A stretch of 54,184 nucleotides of DNA from a virus (IMGVR_UViG_3300017971_000339:1-54184); one strand, 5' to 3'; shown: positions 9,956 through 39,712, numbered from the stretch's first letter. Translations and numbers: made by a program. The notes: generated by a model not told the origin, from the sequence alone.

Positions 9956-10030
9956 CTAAGGCGATTCTGTGATTGATATATAGCAGAATATAGCATATAG
10001 CGTATAATCGCCTTAGAATCAATCTGGGCG
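9956..10030 (+). repeat. Boundary element copy A: 11-bp inverted repeat plus 25-bp conserved block
   Basis: CTAAGGCGATT (9956-9966) and its perfect complement AATCGCCTTAG (10006-10016) flank a 39-bp AT-rich spacer. The right arm begins a 25-bp block (10006-10030) repeated exactly at 38589-38613 (opposite strand) and with 22/25 identity at 17223-17247. Lies right after a stop codon and upstream of the 10042 promoter. Candidate operator or phage-specific transcription signal. Confidence 0.7.
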
Positions 10031-17177: not shown

Positions 17178-17222
17178 GCGCCTAAAAGCGCAATGCTATA
17201 TTATCTATCAAATACGACTTAG

Positions 17223-17247
17223 AATCGCCTTAGATTTGATCTGGGCG
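17223..17247 (+). repeat. Boundary element copy B (22/25 identity to copy A)
   Basis: 25-bp block beginning AATCGCCTTAGA and ending ATCTGGGCG, differing from copies A and C at three central positions. A second CTTAG lies 7-12 bp upstream (17216-17220). The CTAAGGCG left arm of copies A and C is not clearly present. It lies between a small connector gene and the neck gene starting at 17267, pointing into that gene. Confidence 0.65.
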
Positions 17248-18159: not shown

Positions 18160-18539
18160 CCGAGCAATTATTGGAACTTATTTGCATCTCTTTGGCCAGC
18201 GCCTTCTTGGCGAATCTCATTACATTGCAGAATGGGCCGATGATGATCTTTTCCGCGTTGCGAATGCTCGTGGGTAGCTGGACGGCAAAACGATCAAATC
18301 GAATATCTGGCTTAATTACTCATGGAGCGCTGCCTGAATATCGTATGAAATGGGAATTGCGCAAGAACAAGATATACAAAAGCATCGCAGAAATCTTCTC
18401 TTGCCCCTGGTGCTTGGGTCCCTGGATTGTATTTATTTTTGTGGCAATTTTTGCCAATGATCGATTGATATTTAATTGGCTTGTGGCGAGCGGTTTGTTA
18501 TATGTGTTTCTTGGAGTTATGAATGGGCGTTCTAAGTAG
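18156..18539 (+). CDS. DUF1360-like membrane protein
   Basis: 127 residues, GTG start at 18156 overlapping the previous TGA. Two or three membrane segments: about 5-24, 84-99 and 108-122. The FSCPWCLGPW motif (80-89) is the C-P-x-C-x-G-P/F-W signature I associate with DUF1360 phage membrane proteins of unknown function. Its neighbours are virion genes, so it may be a minor membrane component or involved in infection. Overlaps the next gene by 17 bp. Confidence 0.65.
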   Translation: MTEQLLELICISLASAFLANLITLQNGPMMIFSALRMLVGSWTAKRSNRISGLITHGALPEYRMKWELRKNKIYKSIAEIFSCPWCLGPWIVFIFVAIFANDRLIFNWLVASGLLYVFLGVMNGRSK

Positions 18540-20466
18540 CAAAAAATCTCCTGAATATCTGCAGCAAATCAGGAATCGTGTTCCGGAAACGCCATATGCG
18601 TTGCGGGATTCTTTTCTAACCCCGCGCTTACCAGGAGCGGTGAATGGAACCGCTGCAGAACCTGGGCCTGGAACTCGTACTGTAGTGGATACTGGGAATC
18701 TTTTGAGTATTACAGATGGATATGCGGTTTTACCTGCAACTGCTCTTTTGGGTGATCCTGCAATTAGGTACAACAGCAAGAGTAGAGAAGTTGGTGATAT
18801 TCTTATTTTCAGGGATGTGATTATTCGAACACTAAACGGCGGTATTTGTTATATTGGGTGGGACAATAATACGGTATCTGTTTTCTATGATTGTATCATT
18901 CCTTATTTCGGAGCATTTCATCCAGGCGAAGCAGGAGCAACAAACTTGTCATCTGACTTTTATGAATACACAATAAATTCGTCTTATGACTTAGCGATGC
19001 TATCAAGGCAAGCTGGATATTTTTGGTTTGTGAAAGACAACGATAATAAGTGGGAATTATGTTTCGTTTCTAATACTAGCAATATTTCGAGTTATTATCC
19101 TGGGCTTTCTAATCGATTAAATGTAACTTCATTTTTGTATAATGTTGGCGAAATCTCTATTCCCAAGAAACTTTGGCTCCCTGCTCCCCTACTCTCAGAC
19201 GGATTCGGAACGGTTCCGGATGTGATTGATTACGGCGGTGTAAATGATGGAACTCCAACCAGAGTCGGGTTCGGCGGGGATGCTCGCAAAGCATTTTTTG
19301 ATGGCACGAACTCTTTTGTAGATATCTACTCTGCAGATTTGAATAATAAATTTAACGGAAAAGAGTTTTCGTGCATTGTGCGAAGCAAAGTCTCTGATGT
19401 GGCTGTTTGGACTGATGGAACAACTAGATATTTGATTCGGTTTTTTGTAGATGCAAATAATAGTTTCTATATATCCAGAGTAGCTGCAAACAATCGTATT
19501 CAATTTATTTATGAGGCTAATGGGGTTGTGGCAACAATGAACGAAACTTCGTATGCTGGCGAAGTTGGTTGGTTTACTTCTGGCATTACAGGATCAGATA
19601 CAAACGATCAAGCTAGAGCATACAAGAATGGCGTTGAAATAGCAGCATCGCCAGCGGTAAACGCAGGTGTATGGACAGGAAATTTAACTTCGTCAGCCGT
19701 AGTTATTGGTGCTGGAACTACTGCTCCAATCAATGTTTGGGATGGCTGGCTCTCCGATGCGATTCTACTCTACGGCGTGGTAGCAACCCCCGCACAAATG
19801 GCAACCATGCACACTCATTTGGACGCGGGAACTCTTACCGAGCAAATCCTGGACGCTGAATTCGGCGTAAATAATTGGTCATGGTGGAAATTGAACGAAA
19901 GCTACCAGAGCGATGGATTGGGTCATGCCGAGGGGATAGCAGGAGGAATCGGTTCCGGTGGCGCAGGGCTGCAATGGGAGCAGCCTATTGGCGCATTTGA
20001 CATTAATTCATCTGATCAATTTGAATGTGATCTTATAGAAAATCCTGGTTGGGGTAATATTTCGATAGCAGTTGCGGAATGCAAAACGCAGGATGTTGTA
20101 ATTACATGCGATGGATGGGCAGCTTGCGGTCCATGTGCAAGATATTTAGATGAAGACAATCTTGTAATGTTATATAACAACGGTGCTGGAACGGTGGTTC
20201 TTCGCGAGATCGTTGGCGGTGCTATAAATGTATTATTAAGTGTTGCTGCAGTTTATGTTCCTGGTGGGAATTTGCGTCTGATTGTAGATGGACAAAACGT
20301 TAGAGCATATTACGAAGATGTTCTTATTGGAACAGCGGTAATTAATAGCACATTGAAAAGCACAAAGCATGGAGTATCTGCAATTGCAACTCCAACTAGA
20401 TGTGACAATCTCACCATCTACGCCCGAGGCACAAACGGCGAATACGAAATCTTGGAGAGTTTTTAA
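18523..20466 (+). CDS. LamG/concanavalin-like virion protein 1
   Basis: 647 residues, start after TTGGAGTTATGA. Conserved N-terminus (1-55: SSKKSPEYLQQIRNR, RLPGA.NGTAAEPGPGTRTVVDT) for docking. Two beta-sandwich-like halves follow. The first contains IPKKLWLPAPLLSDGFGTVP and DARKAFFDGTNSFVDIY, the second GWLSDAILLYGVVATPAQM (a LamG/pentraxin-like strand pattern) and WSWWKLNESY, ending LTIYARGTNGEYEILESF. Likely carbohydrate-binding receptor or decoration protein placed between head and tail genes. Paired with the next gene, with alternating near-identical and highly diverged blocks. Confidence 0.7.
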   Translation: MGVLSSKKSPEYLQQIRNRVPETPYALRDSFLTPRLPGAVNGTAAEPGPGTRTVVDTGNLLSITDGYAVLPATALLGDPAIRYNSKSREVGDILIFRDVIIRTLNGGICYIGWDNNTVSVFYDCIIPYFGAFHPGEAGATNLSSDFYEYTINSSYDLAMLSRQAGYFWFVKDNDNKWELCFVSNTSNISSYYPGLSNRLNVTSFLYNVGEISIPKKLWLPAPLLSDGFGTVPDVIDYGGVNDGTPTRVGFGGDARKAFFDGTNSFVDIYSADLNNKFNGKEFSCIVRSKVSDVAVWTDGTTRYLIRFFVDANNSFYISRVAANNRIQFIYEANGVVATMNETSYAGEVGWFTSGITGSDTNDQARAYKNGVEIAASPAVNAGVWTGNLTSSAVVIGAGTTAPINVWDGWLSDAILLYGVVATPAQMATMHTHLDAGTLTEQILDAEFGVNNWSWWKLNESYQSDGLGHAEGIAGGIGSGGAGLQWEQPIGAFDINSSDQFECDLIENPGWGNISIAVAECKTQDVVITCDGWAACGPCARYLDEDNLVMLYNNGAGTVVLREIVGGAINVLLSVAAVYVPGGNLRLIVDGQNVRAYYEDVLIGTAVINSTLKSTKHGVSAIATPTRCDNLTIYARGTNGEYEILESF

Positions 20467-20469
20467 AGC

Positions 20470-22386
20470 ATGGGAATTCTGACCAGTAAAAAATCCCCTG
20501 AATATCTGCAACAGATGCGAAATCGAAAACCGGATCTCGTTTATTCTTTGCGTGATGAATTCCTTACTCCCAGACTTCCAGGAGCGATCAACGGAACCGC
20601 TGCAGAACCTGGGCCTGGAACGCGTACGGTTGTGGATACTCTGAATTTGTTGGATATGGGGCGTGGTCGATTATCTGTACATGGATTGAACGCAGTTGGC
20701 GATCCTGGATTGTGGTACGGTTCGATATCTCGAAACCCTGGTGTAATTTTTAAAGCGATCACAAAACACATTTACGCTTTATCTAGTTGGATGATCGGAT
20801 TTGATACAAATCAAGCCGGAGCTATCAATGAATGTGCTTTTTGGTTATCTGGTGGAGTTTTTAGAATCAATGATGGAGCTGCAGGTGCTGCGTCAAGCGC
20901 AGTTTTTACTGCATCCACTAATATATCTTACGGTATTGTTTATGCTTTGCGAACGACTGGTGCTTTGTTTTTTTATAAAGACGGTGACACTAATTATAAA
21001 CTCGCTTGGATTGGATCATCAGGAGTAAATGTAACATTATATCCTGGTGCATCGTTTAACGGTTTACTGTCTGATATTTCCGAAATCTCAATTCCCAAAA
21101 AACTCTGGCTCCCTGCTCCCCTGCTCTCCGATGGATTCGGGACGGTTCCGGATGTGATTGATTACGGTGGTGTGAATGATGGAACGCCAACCAGAGTCGG
21201 GTTCGGCGGAGATGCTCGCAAAGCATTTTTCGATGGCACAAATTCTTTTGTGGATATCTACTCTGCAGATTTGAATAATAAATTTGATGGTGCGGAATGT
21301 TCCGCAATTGTGAGAGCGAGAAATGATTGGGCAGACGCGTCCGTAGATTATATGTTGAATTTGAGTGTTGGCGCATTCTCTGATGGTATTGGTATTTCAA
21401 AGTCAGGAGCAAACACAATTACATTCAATCGATGGGGTGGTGGTGTTACAGAATCAGTGGTAAAAGCTGCGGTTATTACAACATCTACTATGACATTGGG
21501 GCTTACTGTTTCCGAATTGGCAGATGAGTTTAAGGCATTTTACAATGGAGCACAAGAAGGGTTGACTCAAAATGCACTTGGTGTATTCGCAGGAAATCTA
21601 TCAAATCAAAGGTGTTATATCGGTGATAGATTTGTTGCACATTCTGCGCCTTATTTGGGCTGGCTCTCAGATGCAATTATTCTTTATGGCGTAGTGGCAA
21701 CCCCTGCTCAAATGTCAGATATTCATACTCATCTGGACGCGGGAACCATGACAGAATCATGGCTCAACAGCACTTTTGGGCCTGGAACATGGTCATGGTG
21801 GAAATTGAATGAAAGCTACGAGAGCGATGGGTTAGGTCATGCTGAGGGGATAGCAGGAGGGATTGGTTCCGGTGGCGCAGGGCTGCAATGGGAGCAGCCT
21901 ATTGGTTCATTTGACATTGTCTCTAATGCGCTGCATTGTTCATTTCTCGAATCAGAACCGCTTAGTGGAGCATTCCTTGCCATAACAATTAATGATATCA
22001 AAACTGCGGATGTAATTGTAACCTGTGAACCTCAAATCGCTTTATGTGGGTTGGCTTTAAGATATGTGGATAATGCTAATTATATAAGAGTATTCCACGA
22101 TGGGGGCAATGCTGTTTTACGACAATACATTGGTGGTGCACCCACTAATCTAATAAGTGCTGCAGCTGTATTTGGGGCGGGGCAAGAATTAAGGGCAATA
22201 CTGGAGGGTGCTACTGCGCGTCTTTATTACAATGATGTACTGATTGGAACTGCCGTGGTAGATAGTTCCTTGGTTGGCTCCACAAGACACGGTGCTTATG
22301 GAGGGGGGATAAATACTGCTGTCGATAATCTCACCATCTACGCCCGAGGCACAAATGGAGAATACGAAATCTTGGAGAGTTTTTAA
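20470..22386 (+). CDS. LamG/concanavalin-like virion protein 2
   Basis: 638 residues. Tandem paralogue of the preceding gene, 3 bp after its stop. Almost identical at DNA level over the N-terminus, the central block 21092-21286 (against 19171-19356) and the C-terminal blocks near 21809-21914 and 22329-22386. The regions between (about residues 56-200 and 280-400) are unrelated in detail. Same predicted beta-sandwich layout, so probably same attachment point with a different ligand. Its stop overlaps the next start (TAATG). Confidence 0.7.
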   Translation: MGILTSKKSPEYLQQMRNRKPDLVYSLRDEFLTPRLPGAINGTAAEPGPGTRTVVDTLNLLDMGRGRLSVHGLNAVGDPGLWYGSISRNPGVIFKAITKHIYALSSWMIGFDTNQAGAINECAFWLSGGVFRINDGAAGAASSAVFTASTNISYGIVYALRTTGALFFYKDGDTNYKLAWIGSSGVNVTLYPGASFNGLLSDISEISIPKKLWLPAPLLSDGFGTVPDVIDYGGVNDGTPTRVGFGGDARKAFFDGTNSFVDIYSADLNNKFDGAECSAIVRARNDWADASVDYMLNLSVGAFSDGIGISKSGANTITFNRWGGGVTESVVKAAVITTSTMTLGLTVSELADEFKAFYNGAQEGLTQNALGVFAGNLSNQRCYIGDRFVAHSAPYLGWLSDAIILYGVVATPAQMSDIHTHLDAGTMTESWLNSTFGPGTWSWWKLNESYESDGLGHAEGIAGGIGSGGAGLQWEQPIGSFDIVSNALHCSFLESEPLSGAFLAITINDIKTADVIVTCEPQIALCGLALRYVDNANYIRVFHDGGNAVLRQYIGGAPTNLISAAAVFGAGQELRAILEGATARLYYNDVLIGTAVVDSSLVGSTRHGAYGGGINTAVDNLTIYARGTNGEYEILESF

Positions 22387-35176: not shown

Positions 35177-36210
35177 CAGAATTCGCGATTTCTCCTGCAG
35201 GAATTACTTATCCGCGCGTGAATATGCGCGATGAGTACGGCAGAGATCCGGTTCCTTACGAATCTCCACGTATCGTTGATCGGGTTATATCGATGCTCAT
35301 TCAAGCAACCGCAGCCAAAGAATCGTGGTTGCGGGGCATCGATCTGTCAAAATGGAATGGTGTTGTTGATTGGGGAGCAGTAGTTGAGCTGTATGATTTT
35401 GCTTTCATCAAAGCGTGTCAGGATAGAACGATAGATTCCCAATATGATCGTAATACTAATGAAGCTGCAAAGCGCAATTTTGATTTTGGGTTATATGCGT
35501 TTACTGATCCTCAGTATTCGAGCGGAGGAACGCAGGGTAAATTTTTTGCAGATTTGGTTGCGGGTAATCTATCGATGGTGATGGATGCTGAAAGAACGGG
35601 AGGTAAAACTGCTGCTCAATTAACCCTGTGGTATGAAGATTTCTATAACGAACTTGATTATGAATTACCAAAAAAGAAAAAGGATACTTATAATCGCTCA
35701 TCGTTCTGGAACCCGAATGTGTCGCGAGACAATCTCATCAAAGCGAATACGGGATTGTGGATTGCGCGTTATGCTGATTGGCTTGCTGGCCCCTGGGCAG
35801 ATGGGAAATATATCCCGTTAGATTGGGATGATTGGGTTCTCTGGCAGTATACGGATCGCGGCGATGGAAAAGCAATCGGAGAATCGTATGGACTAGATCT
35901 CAATTATTTTCAAGGTGATCGCACAGCATTCAATATTTACTACGGATTAGGGGATACTCCCCCACCAATAGAACCGCCAGGAGGAACAAATTTATGGGAA
36001 TTTGAAACGATAAGAAAAGTTAGGTATCGCACACAACCAGTTGTAAACCCTGCAACTGAGGTGGATTTTCTGTATGCTGGAAATCTAGTACAAGCAAAAG
36101 GAATTGTGGTTCCGAATGGATATGAGGCGTGGTTAGAGTTCGATATGAACGCAGAAACCTATTACACCGCGCTCATTCATTGGGGAACGCAATACCACAA
36201 ACCATTGTAA
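35173..36210 (+). CDS. Endolysin, GH25-type muramidase
   Basis: 345 residues, ATGA-coupled to the previous gene. Cuts the beta-1,4 bond between MurNAc and GlcNAc. GIDLSKWNG (55-63) supplies Asp57, FAFIKACQD follows, VMDAER has Asp138 and Glu140 (the catalytic D-x-E), and WIARYADWLAG, WVLWQYTDRGDG complete the GH25 pattern. A 54-residue N-terminal extension precedes the catalytic domain, unusual for the family. The C-terminal 70 residues (after PPPIEPPGG) look SH3-like, probably cell-wall binding. Followed by a holin candidate. Confidence 0.85.
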   Translation: MTEFAISPAGITYPRVNMRDEYGRDPVPYESPRIVDRVISMLIQATAAKESWLRGIDLSKWNGVVDWGAVVELYDFAFIKACQDRTIDSQYDRNTNEAAKRNFDFGLYAFTDPQYSSGGTQGKFFADLVAGNLSMVMDAERTGGKTAAQLTLWYEDFYNELDYELPKKKKDTYNRSSFWNPNVSRDNLIKANTGLWIARYADWLAGPWADGKYIPLDWDDWVLWQYTDRGDGKAIGESYGLDLNYFQGDRTAFNIYYGLGDTPPPIEPPGGTNLWEFETIRKVRYRTQPVVNPATEVDFLYAGNLVQAKGIVVPNGYEAWLEFDMNAETYYTALIHWGTQYHKPL

Positions 36211-36550: not shown

Positions 36551-36573
36551 TAATAAGATCTCAAAGAATAAAA

Positions 36574-36602
36574 AATCCCCTCGAATTGAGGGGATTTTTT
36601 GT
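36574..36602 (+). terminator. Bidirectional terminator between late genes and the leftward cassette
   Basis: AATCCCCTC - GAATT - GAGGGGATT followed by TTTTTT on the + strand and preceded by A-run on the + strand (T-run on the other strand). It can end both the rightward late transcript and the leftward cassette transcript. Confidence 0.85.
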
Positions 36603-36625
36603 TTGATCATTTCTTTATTCTGAAT

Positions 36626-36862
36626 TTAAAATACTTGTTTGCCAAAAGAAATATCCGATTCATCATATGTCCCACCTTTGGAATTTCTGCGAAAACCAAA
36701 ACGTGTACCCTGTGACTGCGCATCGCCTATTTGTCGCTCTCCAATCTGTTCATCTGTTTCTGGTATATCAACAAGATCGGATAGGATGAAATACAAATCA
36801 ATTACGTCCTCAGATGACAGACTATCAATAACCCAATTTACTGCATTCCCTATAATGCCCAT
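36626..36862 (-). CDS. Hypothetical 78-residue protein, last gene of the leftward cassette
   Basis: Start after AGAGGAGCATAAG. The sequence MGIIGNAVNWVIDSL then acidic DLVDIPETDEQIGERQ and a polar tail. No membrane segment beyond a short amphipathic N-terminal helix. Unrecognised. Shares the cassette promoter at 39644-39672. Confidence 0.6.
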   Translation of the reverse strand: MGIIGNAVNWVIDSLSSEDVIDLYFILSDLVDIPETDEQIGERQIGDAQSQGTRFGFRRNSKGGTYDESDISFGKQVF

Positions 36863-36898
36863 CTTATGCTCCTCTATTAGTGTTGAACTTAGATTTAA

Positions 36899-36955
36899 AC
36901 AGTTATTTACTCTAGGGAATCAGTTCCCAGAATATACGCCATCTCCAATTCTGCG
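36899..36955 (+). repeat. 57-bp repeat, copy 1
   Basis: Near-identical to 37379-37434 (one indel and several substitutions), including the identical 20-mer AATCAGTTCCCAGAATATAC. It covers the 3' end of the acidic gene and its stop codon. Confidence 0.7.
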
Positions 36956-37344
36956 TTATCGTATGGACTCTCGGCCTGCGCTGCTTCCATGCGCTCCTCT
37001 GGAACTTCTATCATATCAGTGAATATAAAACCTAATCCGATTGATACTCTGTCAAGAATGCCAAGCGAACTCTGTCCAGATGGCGGTAAATTTTCGATCC
37101 TATCTTGAATGGATTCTCCTGGACGAGCATCCTCAGTAAAGGCTCCATCAAATCTCTCAAATATATCGAAAACATCGTTCAATTCTTCGTAATCTTCTGG
37201 CGCTATTTCGTGCACTCCCTCAAATCTGACTTCGTGTAATTCTTCGTAATCTTCATCGTCAATCTCAAATAATTCATCCTGACACTCTTCATCCGTATAG
37301 ATGGGTTCAAATCTGATCTCATGGAATTCTATTTCATCGCTCAT
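36907..37344 (-). CDS. Acidic hypothetical protein
   Basis: 145 residues from the ATG at 37344 (AGGAGA upstream, 12-nt spacing). A longer frame from a GTG at 37389 is possible. Very acidic, dominated by tandem DDEDYEELHEVRFEG and APEDYEELNDVFD units, two obvious degenerate repeats of ...I-x-x-E-D-Y-E-E-L... Ends YILGTDSLE. Probably a protein-protein adaptor or a DNA-mimic-like acidic protein, the latter being speculation. Its 3' end is duplicated at the 3' end of the next gene. Confidence 0.6.
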   Translation of the reverse strand: MSDEIEFHEIRFEPIYTDEECQDELFEIDDEDYEELHEVRFEGVHEIAPEDYEELNDVFDIFERFDGAFTEDARPGESIQDRIENLPPSGQSSLGILDRVSIGLGFIFTDMIEVPEERMEAAQAESPYDNAELEMAYILGTDSLE

Positions 37345-37378
37345 TTGTAATTTTTTCTCCTGTTGATTTTCGTTTTCA

Positions 37379-37434
37379 ACAGTTGTCACTCTAGGAAATC
37401 AGTTCCCAGAATATACACCCTCCCCAATTTTGCG
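37379..37434 (+). repeat. 57-bp repeat, copy 2
   Basis: Second copy of the repeat, covering the 3' end of the 390-residue membrane gene. There it is read in a different frame from copy 1 (ending YSGN rather than YILGTD-x-LE), so the DNA rather than the protein is what is shared, or one gene has suffered a frameshift near its end. Confidence 0.7.
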
Positions 37435-38571
37435 AACTGTTGACTGCTGTTCTGGACTGTTGGATAGTGTTGACTGTTGAAGGTACGTTTTTTGTAGATG
37501 GCTTGTCACTCTGGAAATGGGTGGGAAGTCACCATATTTTATCTCCTCTTGTAATTCCCTGAATGTTCCTTGATGCAAACGTGTAGCTTTCCCCTGCTGG
37601 CGAGGATTACAGCGTCCATAATTTGCAAGGATATCAACCGCTTGATCGCGCTCCGGTTGGGAGATTCCATCCTGCAATTTATCGAATCGTGGAACTTGAT
37701 TGTAATCCATGTGCTTATCGCCCATCATTTGAATCGCAGCGATTAATTTTAAAACGAGTTGTTTTTCTTTTTCCTTTTGTGCCATTATTCCAGAAACGGT
37801 GTTTGCCATTTGAGTGTAATCCATTTTCTTTTGGTTCTTCTGGTGCTGATCCTTTTTCCAGTCTATGTTCTGCTCTGCAGCTTTAGTTACTCGATACAAG
37901 AAAAACCAGAAGATGAGAACGCTAACCACAATTCCAATGGTGATTGCATAGGTTTTGATGGTTTCGATAAATTCATGATTGGATACATCAATGTCGTTCT
38001 TTTCATTCTGGGATTGAACCGCATCTGATTTGGCTTGCAATTCTAACGCCATCATTTCTTTTCCATGCTCAATTGTGGCAACCGCTTGTGTTTCTAACGC
38101 TCCCAGAGAAACCGCTGTTTGAGTATAGGAAACGGACTGTTGCTGCTCAATATCGTCAATCTCTTTTTGTGCTCTTTTTTGTGCAACCTGGATTTCCCAG
38201 TATTTCGCCTCGGATGTAGCGCTCGCTGCTAATCCACCCAAATAGGATTGCGTCTTTTCGAGCGCTTGGCTAGTTTTCTGGAAATCAGGAACAGACGCGG
38301 GTTTCTGGATATCTTCGCTCTTACTGCCTCCCTGTCCGATGCTGTCCGATGCTGCAGCTGCATTTCCAATATTCAAACGCAAGTTTTCCATGATTGCAGT
38401 TTGCTTGGCAGAATGATCGTTTGGTGCGTCTACGGGTCCAGCGTAAAGCGCCCATCCAATGATGGACAATAATAGCATTCCAAACAAAAAGAAGAAAATC
38501 CAAAAACCCGCCTTATTCTTTTTTTTGCGGTGCGCTCTAATTGCAGCCATTTCTTGCGGTGTTAGTTTCAT
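37399..38571 (-). CDS. Two-pass membrane protein with coiled coil
   Basis: 390 residues, taking ATG 38571 (MKLTPQEMAAIRAH) rather than TTG 38652, because the earlier part reads through the boundary element. Basic cytoplasmic start (9-20), membrane helix 22-44, an external region 45-206 with helical coiled coils (about 105-195, KRAQKEIDDIEQQQSVSY), membrane helix 207-228 and a cytoplasmic part 229-390. The last has RFDKLQDGISQPERDQAVDI and TFRELQEEIKYGDFPPISRV, possibly winged-helix-like. No obvious ribosome site at 38571, so the start is uncertain. Its C-terminus lies in a duplicated segment. Confidence 0.65.
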   Translation of the reverse strand: MKLTPQEMAAIRAHRKKKNKAGFWIFFFLFGMLLLSIIGWALYAGPVDAPNDHSAKQTAIMENLRLNIGNAAAASDSIGQGGSKSEDIQKPASVPDFQKTSQALEKTQSYLGGLAASATSEAKYWEIQVAQKRAQKEIDDIEQQQSVSYTQTAVSLGALETQAVATIEHGKEMMALELQAKSDAVQSQNEKNDIDVSNHEFIETIKTYAITIGIVVSVLIFWFFLYRVTKAAEQNIDWKKDQHQKNQKKMDYTQMANTVSGIMAQKEKEKQLVLKLIAAIQMMGDKHMDYNQVPRFDKLQDGISQPERDQAVDILANYGRCNPRQQGKATRLHQGTFRELQEEIKYGDFPPISRVTSHLQKTYLQQSTLSNSPEQQSTVRKIGEGVYSGN

Positions 38572-38588
38572 AATTTCGTTTTGTGGAT

Positions 38589-38662
38589 CGCCCAGATTGA
38601 TTCTAAGGCGATTCCTGGTGAGATTGGATTGCTGATATGGATAGAACCACAAAGCGCCTTAG
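38589..38662 (-). repeat. Boundary element copy C with inverted arms
   Basis: Minus-strand block 38613-38589 is identical over all 25 bp to copy A. CTAAGGCG (38603-38610 on +) and CGCCTTAG (38655-38662) form an 8-bp inverted repeat with a 44-bp spacer, the same layout as copy A. It sits directly after the stop of the upstream cassette gene and ends about 17 bp before the ATG at 38571. Confidence 0.7.
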
Positions 38663-38663
38663 A

Positions 38664-39347
38664 TTAGCCCTTTCCTTCACGGAGATATTCTTTCCATCTT
38701 GTGACTGTTCTGCCCGTTACTTCCGGAAACATGGTTTTTAGGGTTTCCCTGGAATGTCCATTCTGCAGCTGTGCTTTCATCTCTGGCGAAAGTTCGCGCC
38801 AATCACTGACAGAATAGATCGCGGTGCTGTCCAGTTCTGTCTTTTTTCTGTCCGCTGCTTTCCTGGATTTGCTGGATGCTTTTTTTGTACTAGATCTCGC
38901 ATTCTTGTTTTCTACCATGCTGATCGAATTATTCGTGGCAATCAGGAGCGCTCCTGAGAGGCTAAGTAAACTCAGGAATGCTATCGCCAGGGATTGAATG
39001 ACAGCGCTGCTCTCGTGCCAGTTGTGCGCCTCTAGTAGCACATTTGTAAGAATGATTGCTGTAAGATAGATCGTATAAGAAATCAGTGGTGGGTATTCGG
39101 ATACGTGATTTTTCTCATCCTTGTATCTGCGATTGAATTGTTTCGCTTTGTAATAGATGGATATCGAACCAATTCCGATTCCCTCTGCAGCTGCAGCGAT
39201 GAGCAGAGCGCCTACCCCATGCAAGCCCATGATTCTAGTAAGATTGATAAACAGAAAAATTGCGGGGATGATCGAAGCAACAAAAGGCGTAATGCTAACG
39301 ACTAATTCTGTTAGCGTTTTCTCAAAGAATTCTGTAATCTTATTCAT
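38664..39347 (-). CDS. Four-helix membrane protein with C-terminal helix-turn-helix
   Basis: 227 residues from ATG 39347, which overlaps the preceding gene's TAA. Membrane segments about 13-38, 42-66, 88-106 and 116-138; a Lys/Arg/Ser-rich linker (147-170); and a cytoplasmic HTH (182-223: SDWRELSPEMKAQL, ETLKTMFPEVTGRTVTRWKE). A membrane-tethered DNA-binding layout of this kind resembles, in general plan, the DUF2637/SpdB transfer proteins of actinobacteria, but I do not claim homology. Could sense the membrane state or anchor DNA to it. Confidence 0.7.
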   Translation of the reverse strand: MNKITEFFEKTLTELVVSITPFVASIIPAIFLFINLTRIMGLHGVGALLIAAAAEGIGIGSISIYYKAKQFNRRYKDEKNHVSEYPPLISYTIYLTAIILTNVLLEAHNWHESSAVIQSLAIAFLSLLSLSGALLIATNNSISMVENKNARSSTKKASSKSRKAADRKKTELDSTAIYSVSDWRELSPEMKAQLQNGHSRETLKTMFPEVTGRTVTRWKEYLREGKG

Positions 39348-39525
39348 CGTTGTACTTCTTTGAATTCGTGCGAAAATAAAAATAATGTTCAATCGCTCTA
39401 TGGATTGTTCCGGTAATATCATCTCCGTCTAGTTCCATGATGCGCTCAAATTTTCGGTTGACTACATCTGGTAAATTGACGGTTATTTTTCTGTGAGATT
39501 TCTTGCTTGTTGATTTGTTTGGCAT
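39340..39525 (-). CDS. Ribbon-helix-helix (Arc/CopG-like) regulator
   Basis: 61 residues. A basic arm (1-11), strand HRKITVNLPD (11-20), helix VVNRKFERIMEL, turn and helix ITGTIHRAIEHYFYF make a clean RHH. Such dimers bind DNA through paired strands at palindromic operators. First gene of the leftward cassette; the palindrome over its promoter (39633-39667) is the natural candidate target, giving autoregulation. Long structured leader precedes it and no strong Shine-Dalgarno is visible. Confidence 0.75.
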   Translation of the reverse strand: MPNKSTSKKSHRKITVNLPDVVNRKFERIMELDGDDITGTIHRAIEHYFYFRTNSKKYNDE

Positions 39526-39537
39526 AAGATACCCATT

Positions 39538-39623
39538 GCATCCTCGCAGCGAGTAGAATCAATCGGATGGGTAACATCGCCCCCGCGAATAATTATAGGG
39601 GTCGGTTTTCGCTGCGAGGATGC
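39538..39623 (-). promoter_or_regulatory. Leader with a perfect 15-bp inverted repeat
   Basis: GCATCCTCGCAGCGA (39538-39552) is exactly complementary to 39609-39623, enclosing 56 nt. In the cassette transcript (start near 39637) the arms would form a long stem only 12 nt upstream of the RHH start, with CCCC/GGGG pairing inside the loop. The spacer also holds TAGAATCAATC (39554-39564, + strand), the core of the boundary element. Could be a riboregulator, or a protein- or recombinase-binding site. Confidence 0.6.
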
Positions 39624-39632
39624 GTTAAGGAG

Positions 39633-39672
39633 ATAATAAGATAATATTATCGTTCTAATCTTATTATGTCAA
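39633..39672 (-). promoter_or_regulatory. Cassette promoter overlapped by a 10-bp inverted repeat operator
   Basis: On the minus strand TTGACA (39672-39667), 17 bp, TAATAT (39649-39644). ATAATAAGAT (39633-39642) and ATCTTATTAT (39658-39667) form a perfect inverted repeat straddling the promoter from -10 to -35, exactly where a repressor would block RNA polymerase. The nearby RHH protein is the simplest candidate binder. Confidence 0.65.
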
Positions 39673-39677
39673 GTAGC

Positions 39678-39712
39678 AAATAAAAAAGAGAGAGCGTCCA
39701 CGCTCTCTCTTT
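39678..39712 (-). terminator. Terminator of the leftward early operon
   Basis: AAAGAGAGAGCG - TCCA - CGCTCTCTCTTT, 12-bp stem (39685-39696 with 39701-39712), followed on the minus strand by a T-rich run (39687-39678). Ends transcripts that come through the 39733 gene, 5 bp before the cassette promoter -35. Confidence 0.85.

Follow-up and report, generated by a model that had tools for sequence, protein, structure and literature searches.

A family of predicted membrane proteins with helix-turn-helix tails common to phages and integrative elements of Chloroflexota

Introduction

What function is served by a self-contained group of phage genes lying between the lysis module on one side and the replication module on the other? 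The window, that is, the whole stretch of DNA analysed here (54,184 nucleotides), is a tailed-phage contig of 54 kb from a virus collection. Five minus-strand ORFs, A to E, occupy positions 36626-39672, all of them intact with start and stop codons. They are flanked by a holin and a GH25 endolysin on one side and by an SNF2 helicase and DnaD/DnaB-like replication genes on the other. An earlier note, made from the sequence alone, had described this region as an autonomous leftward cassette between the two modules, with its own promoter and terminators at both ends, and had suggested superinfection exclusion, defence or host takeover as its function. The layout is borne out by the present analysis; the function is reconsidered below in the light of the relatives of gene B.

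Organisation of the cassette

The anatomy claimed for genes A to C is upheld: a putative ribbon-helix-helix (RHH) regulator, a four-pass transmembrane (TM) protein with a cytoplasmic helix-turn-helix (HTH), and a two-pass coiled-coil protein. Gene A (39340-39525, minus strand, 61 aa) encodes a putative Arc-like RHH protein, the probable regulator of the operon, which matches the PHROG Arc-like repressor weakly (E 0.03) and nothing in Pfam. It overlaps gene B by 8 bp, which suggests a single operon. Gene B (38664-39347, minus strand, 227 aa) encodes four TM helices, a basic linker and a C-terminal HTH; hydropathy gives four hydrophobic segments in B and two in C. The coiled-coil protein encoded by gene C (37399-38571, minus strand, 390 aa) consists, judging by hydropathy and charge, of an N-terminal-side TM helix, a mostly helical extracytoplasmic segment of ~160 aa, a second TM helix and a basic cytoplasmic tail. 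The charge pattern predicts both ends of B and of C to be cytoplasmic. Sequence composition agrees with the small acidic proteins claimed for the remaining genes, D (36907-37344, minus strand, 145 aa) being very acidic with a net charge of -38 and E (36626-36862, minus strand, 78 aa) acidic.

Searches of A to E against Pfam, PHROGs, NCBIfam and PADLOC gave no convincing family match, gene B having no model in any of the four. Comparison with virion, replication and defence families gave no match either, in keeping with the earlier statement that no morphogenesis or replication family is visible. No homologue of D was found in Pfam or PHROGs, and none was detectable for E. Gene C has no detectable homologue: among 396 Anaerolineae genomes the best hit to its query (P0001) had an E value of 0.002, and no coherent family emerged. 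Queries P0001 and P0002 retrieved nothing from viral contigs or from phages, and P0002 nothing from plasmids or genome contigs. The cassette region used as a DNA query found no match in the phage collection, and a terminase scan recovered only a second, near-identical copy of the same virus, which ends at window position 35946, short of the cassette.

A 47-nt repeat is shared by the 3' ends of D (36909-36955) and C (37388-37434), where it is read in different frames; it indicates a putative tandem duplication. Gene E, in turn, has a short motif in common with the C-terminal part of D. Because of these two likenesses, the C-D-E end of the cassette probably grew by duplication.

A sigma-70-like promoter (TTGACA-17-TAATAT, 39672-39644, minus strand) matches the consensus at 10 of 12 positions. 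Strong hairpin/T-run terminators stand at both ends: one on the upstream side of the promoter (39685-39712, minus strand), between the cassette and the replication operon, and a bidirectional one on both strands between the holin and gene E (36566-36604). The operator-like palindrome expected from the earlier note was found as an inverted repeat with 10-bp arms overlapping the promoter, ATAATAAGAT-N15-ATCTTATTAT (39633-39667), though it is only modestly unusual, its inner 8-bp part occurring in 43 of 2000 shuffles. A far stronger repeat, absent from that note, lies in the leader 5' of gene A: a perfect 15-bp inverted repeat with a 56-nt loop (39538-39623), matched in none of 2000 dinucleotide shuffles and with an RNA fold z of -4.0. 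Between B and C lies a 25-bp intergenic element, AATCGCCTTAGAATCAATCTGGGCG (38589-38613, minus strand), identical to 10006-10030 on the plus strand and present with three changes at 17217-17241, also on the plus strand. All three copies stand 5' of a gene in the sense orientation, and among the loci fetched the element is confined to this virus. The 11-mer TAGAATCAATC from this element also occurs inside the leader inverted repeat.

The B protein family

Protein B belongs to a family, assembled here from sequence, with a predicted architecture in which four hydrophobic helices are followed by a charged linker and by an HTH at the C-terminus. A single-sequence search with B gave E values of 2e-13, 1e-9 and 2e-9 in three Anaerolineae genomes. 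When the window protein is left out, a profile built from 14 relatives recovers window B at E 5e-28 and no other ORF of the window (next ORF 0.14). Family profiles match 8 of 396 genomes of the class (Anaerolineae) and 3 of 400 of the phylum. The family occupies about ten loci of Chloroflexota genomes, one genome having three copies, and at least four phage-like contigs besides the window, of which three are clearly phages. No relatives of B were found in annotated phage and plasmid collections. Coverage of whole genomes outside Chloroflexota was limited to one pattern scan, that of the genome contigs, which retrieved nothing.

The four phage-like contigs all match window B in blastp (1e-15 to 1e-5) and contain no homologues of the window's virion genes, except for a single pair of tail genes with a weak match. 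A profile detected TerL in two of these four viral contigs, and in a third (L131) it was recognised by eye. The distribution of B, together with a terminase homologue, 39% identical, in a Caldilineaceae genome, suggests that the host of the phage is probably a member of Chloroflexota.

An HTH-like C-terminal segment is recognisable in 14 of 15 family members, the one in G246 being doubtful by eye, and a charged or coiled linker separates this tail from a hydrophobic part of about four segments. Of ten tails that were scanned, most match Pfam HTH_23 or other HTH families; the tail of window B reaches Pfam HTH families only through its relatives. The alignment of window B with the phage protein of G748 extends over the TM part as well as the HTH tail. 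AlphaFold models have low confidence (pLDDT 58 and 57), the HTH being the best-predicted region of the B model, with three helices at pLDDT 76-80. A fold search from this low-confidence model returned chance helical matches only. Degraded copies of B occur as well (L153 and L173): one in G209 contains a stop codon and one in G028 (C873) is truncated, both beside serine recombinases.

Neighbours of B relatives

In integrative elements, the context of the B family places it in a module with FtsK-type translocases, recombinases and replication proteins. Several neighbours, including holin, RecT, DnaD and the L169 integrase, were named by eye, and others by profile searches. FtsK adjoins B in four loci (L119, L150, L152 and L170), and a recombinase or integrase lies near B in L119, L121, L150, L153, L168, L169 and L172. 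L119 contains two FtsK-like ATPases, B and a serine recombinase overlapping B; the element it belongs to, in G136, carries replication genes, and none of its ten proteins scanned has a virion match. The order is RHH, B, FtsK, two-TM coiled-coil protein and serine recombinase in L150, and RHH, B, FtsK and two-TM protein in L152. In both, the RHH/HicB gene lies directly upstream of the B homologue, as in the phage, and the RHH neighbours of B relatives match HicB/RHH_1 in profile searches. Other loci combine B with a C-like protein and FtsK (L170), with a two-TM protein, a weaker AAA ATPase with two TMs and a tyrosine integrase (L169), or with a replication gene and a two-TM protein (L151). A C-like protein, B and a serine recombinase make up L172; a C-like protein, two small membrane proteins and B make up L171; and L121 has a tyrosine integrase, B, Prim-Pol and Rep. 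An ORF adjoining the G136 element (L119, 509-2623) appears by eye to be prokaryotic Argonaute-like.

Among the viral contigs, B lies between RecT/DnaD-like genes and holin/endolysin in L130, overlaps a two-TM protein near DnaD/DnaB in L131, and is found near replication or recombination genes in L167 and L168. A profile check found no FtsK in the B-bearing viral contigs, and in three of these four contigs no obvious C-like protein adjoins B. These contexts define the recurring partners of B as DNA-handling proteins, an RHH gene and two-TM membrane proteins. Conservation is seen for B itself, for the RHH-B pair and for B with a two-TM protein; the five-gene set as a whole does not recur.

The window phage holds the RHH-B part of the module together with the two-pass coiled-coil protein C and no translocase. 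FtsK (PF01580) is absent from the window, and the tyrosine and serine recombinases of B relatives, used as queries, found no integrase there. Proteins with C-like architecture adjoin B in L150, L170, L171 and L172. Comparison of C with these neighbours gave no significant sequence similarity: local BLAST gave E values of 0.004-0.03 over low-complexity coiled coil, among eight sequences and with composition uncorrected. A likeness between the tails of C and the L172 protein, seen by eye, was not borne out by alignment.

Discussion

The B family represents previously undescribed membrane proteins with a DNA-binding-type tail, common to phages and integrative elements, and is defined by its architecture and its recurring neighbours. 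The recurrence of B beside FtsK, recombinase and replication genes points to the handling of the element's own DNA, and the probable role of the cassette is in DNA handling at the membrane, not in defence against other phages. The reading we favour, with belief and doubt about evenly balanced, is that mobile DNA is tethered or organised at the membrane by B in concert with C, and that A controls the operon. B would sit in the cytoplasmic membrane and might bind phage DNA via its cytoplasmic HTH. B and C may form a membrane assembly, and this assembly would tether phage DNA at the envelope, serving replication, segregation or passage between the cells of a filament. A would repress the cassette's own promoter. 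By analogy, such tethering would work like that of SpdB2 and DUF2637 of Streptomyces elements and of p16.7 of phi29.

SpdB2 of the Streptomyces plasmid pSVH1 is reported to be an integral protein of the membrane that forms oligomers, binds dsDNA and interacts with the FtsK-type transfer protein TraB (PMC4170104). It is likened to B, both being membrane proteins, by its published description and not by sequence alignment; B has a discrete HTH and its phage is without TraB, unlike the SpdB2 system. DUF2637 (PF10935) shares with B the four TM helices, the linker and a C-terminal HTH-like tail, seen by eye in L193, L138 and L139. Streptomyces plasmid gene order runs FtsK, DUF2637, SpdD, Rep, integrase, and in a Streptomyces genome FtsK adjoins DUF2637 twice. 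Like the B relatives of L119, L150, L152 and L170, DUF2637 genes thus adjoin an FtsK/TraB-type translocase, which the window phage lacks. DUF2637 of Streptomyces plasmids and of actinomycete integrative conjugative elements of the FtsK/SpoIIIE type (AICEs) belongs to another phylum than B, whereas B is found in phages too. An identity of B with DUF2637 was rejected, since PF10935 misses window B and hhalign gives P values of 0.17 and 0.019 with a probability below 3%.

In phi29, the membrane protein p16.7 is reported to anchor replication to the membrane and to have a DNA-binding part in the cytoplasm (PMC4974454). It shares these features with B as proposed here and, likened by description alone, would be the closest precedent among phages for the organisation of DNA by a membrane anchor. 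It has a single TM segment, and its DNA-binding domain is unlike that of B.

AICE modules comprise an integrase, Rep or Prim-Pol, and FtsK (PMC3218068). The Chloroflexota B loci are AICE-like in combining an integrase (tyrosine or serine), Rep or Prim-Pol/DnaB, and FtsK, as known from their genes alone; they differ in lying outside Actinobacteria, and the window phage itself has neither FtsK nor integrase. By analogy, these loci appear to resemble the tra-spd region of actinomycete FtsK-type conjugative elements. This suggests that FtsK-type integrative elements, known mainly from Actinobacteria, may be matched by equivalents in Chloroflexota, with a membrane component that phages have as well. 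A more speculative extension, which we consider unlikely, is that the AICE-like elements of Chloroflexota move dsDNA between cells, perhaps along filaments, via FtsK and a 4TM-HTH/two-TM assembly, and that phages adopted the membrane components for anchoring their DNA at the septa of multicellular filaments or passing it across them. A role of the B family in filamentous bacteria, be it in replication, segregation or spread, can now be tested directly.

An HTH on a membrane protein fits a membrane-bound transcription regulator equally as well as a tether, and such a regulator is the strongest rival to tethering, though we regard it as rather unlikely. B, and perhaps C, would then be a one-component regulator in the membrane sensing the state of the envelope or of infection, with the HTH of B controlling phage or element genes and A and B regulating the cassette. 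The HTH tails across the family, the RHH partner, the cassette's own promoter with its inverted repeats and the B/C 25-bp element common to two further intergenic regions of the phage are all consistent with regulation. B, however, has no sensor domain besides the TM bundle, and what recurs next to it are FtsK, recombinase and replication genes, not a single conserved set of regulated genes.

The superinfection-exclusion, defence or host-takeover role of the earlier note, with the cassette as a moron, gains no positive support here and is quite unlikely. Autonomous transcription and small membrane proteins would suit such a role, the acidic D could be a DNA mimic, and C, D and E are unconserved accessory genes, but PADLOC has no match for A to E. 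The occurrence of B in several phage-like contigs that are divergent in other respects, and in transfer and maintenance modules of elements, in the company of translocases, recombinases and replication genes, looks more like a core DNA function than a dispensable defence gene. Very unlikely is a reading of the cassette as a non-functional remnant, captured recently from the transfer operon (RHH-B-FtsK-C) of an integrative element, that has lost FtsK: the L150 order RHH-B-FtsK-C-like-recombinase against RHH-B-C in the phage, the lack of FtsK in the phage and the degraded B copies elsewhere (G209, G028 C873) would allow it, but all five frames are intact, promoter and terminators are kept, and four other phage-like contigs retain B without FtsK.

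Elsewhere in the phage, two adjacent genes of ~640 aa each at 18523-22386 form a tandem duplication, with DNA identity of 75-95% over stretches. The gene at 102-992 matches a TET-associated glycosyltransferase (TAGT, E 5e-45), and this match suggests that the phage DNA is hypermodified.
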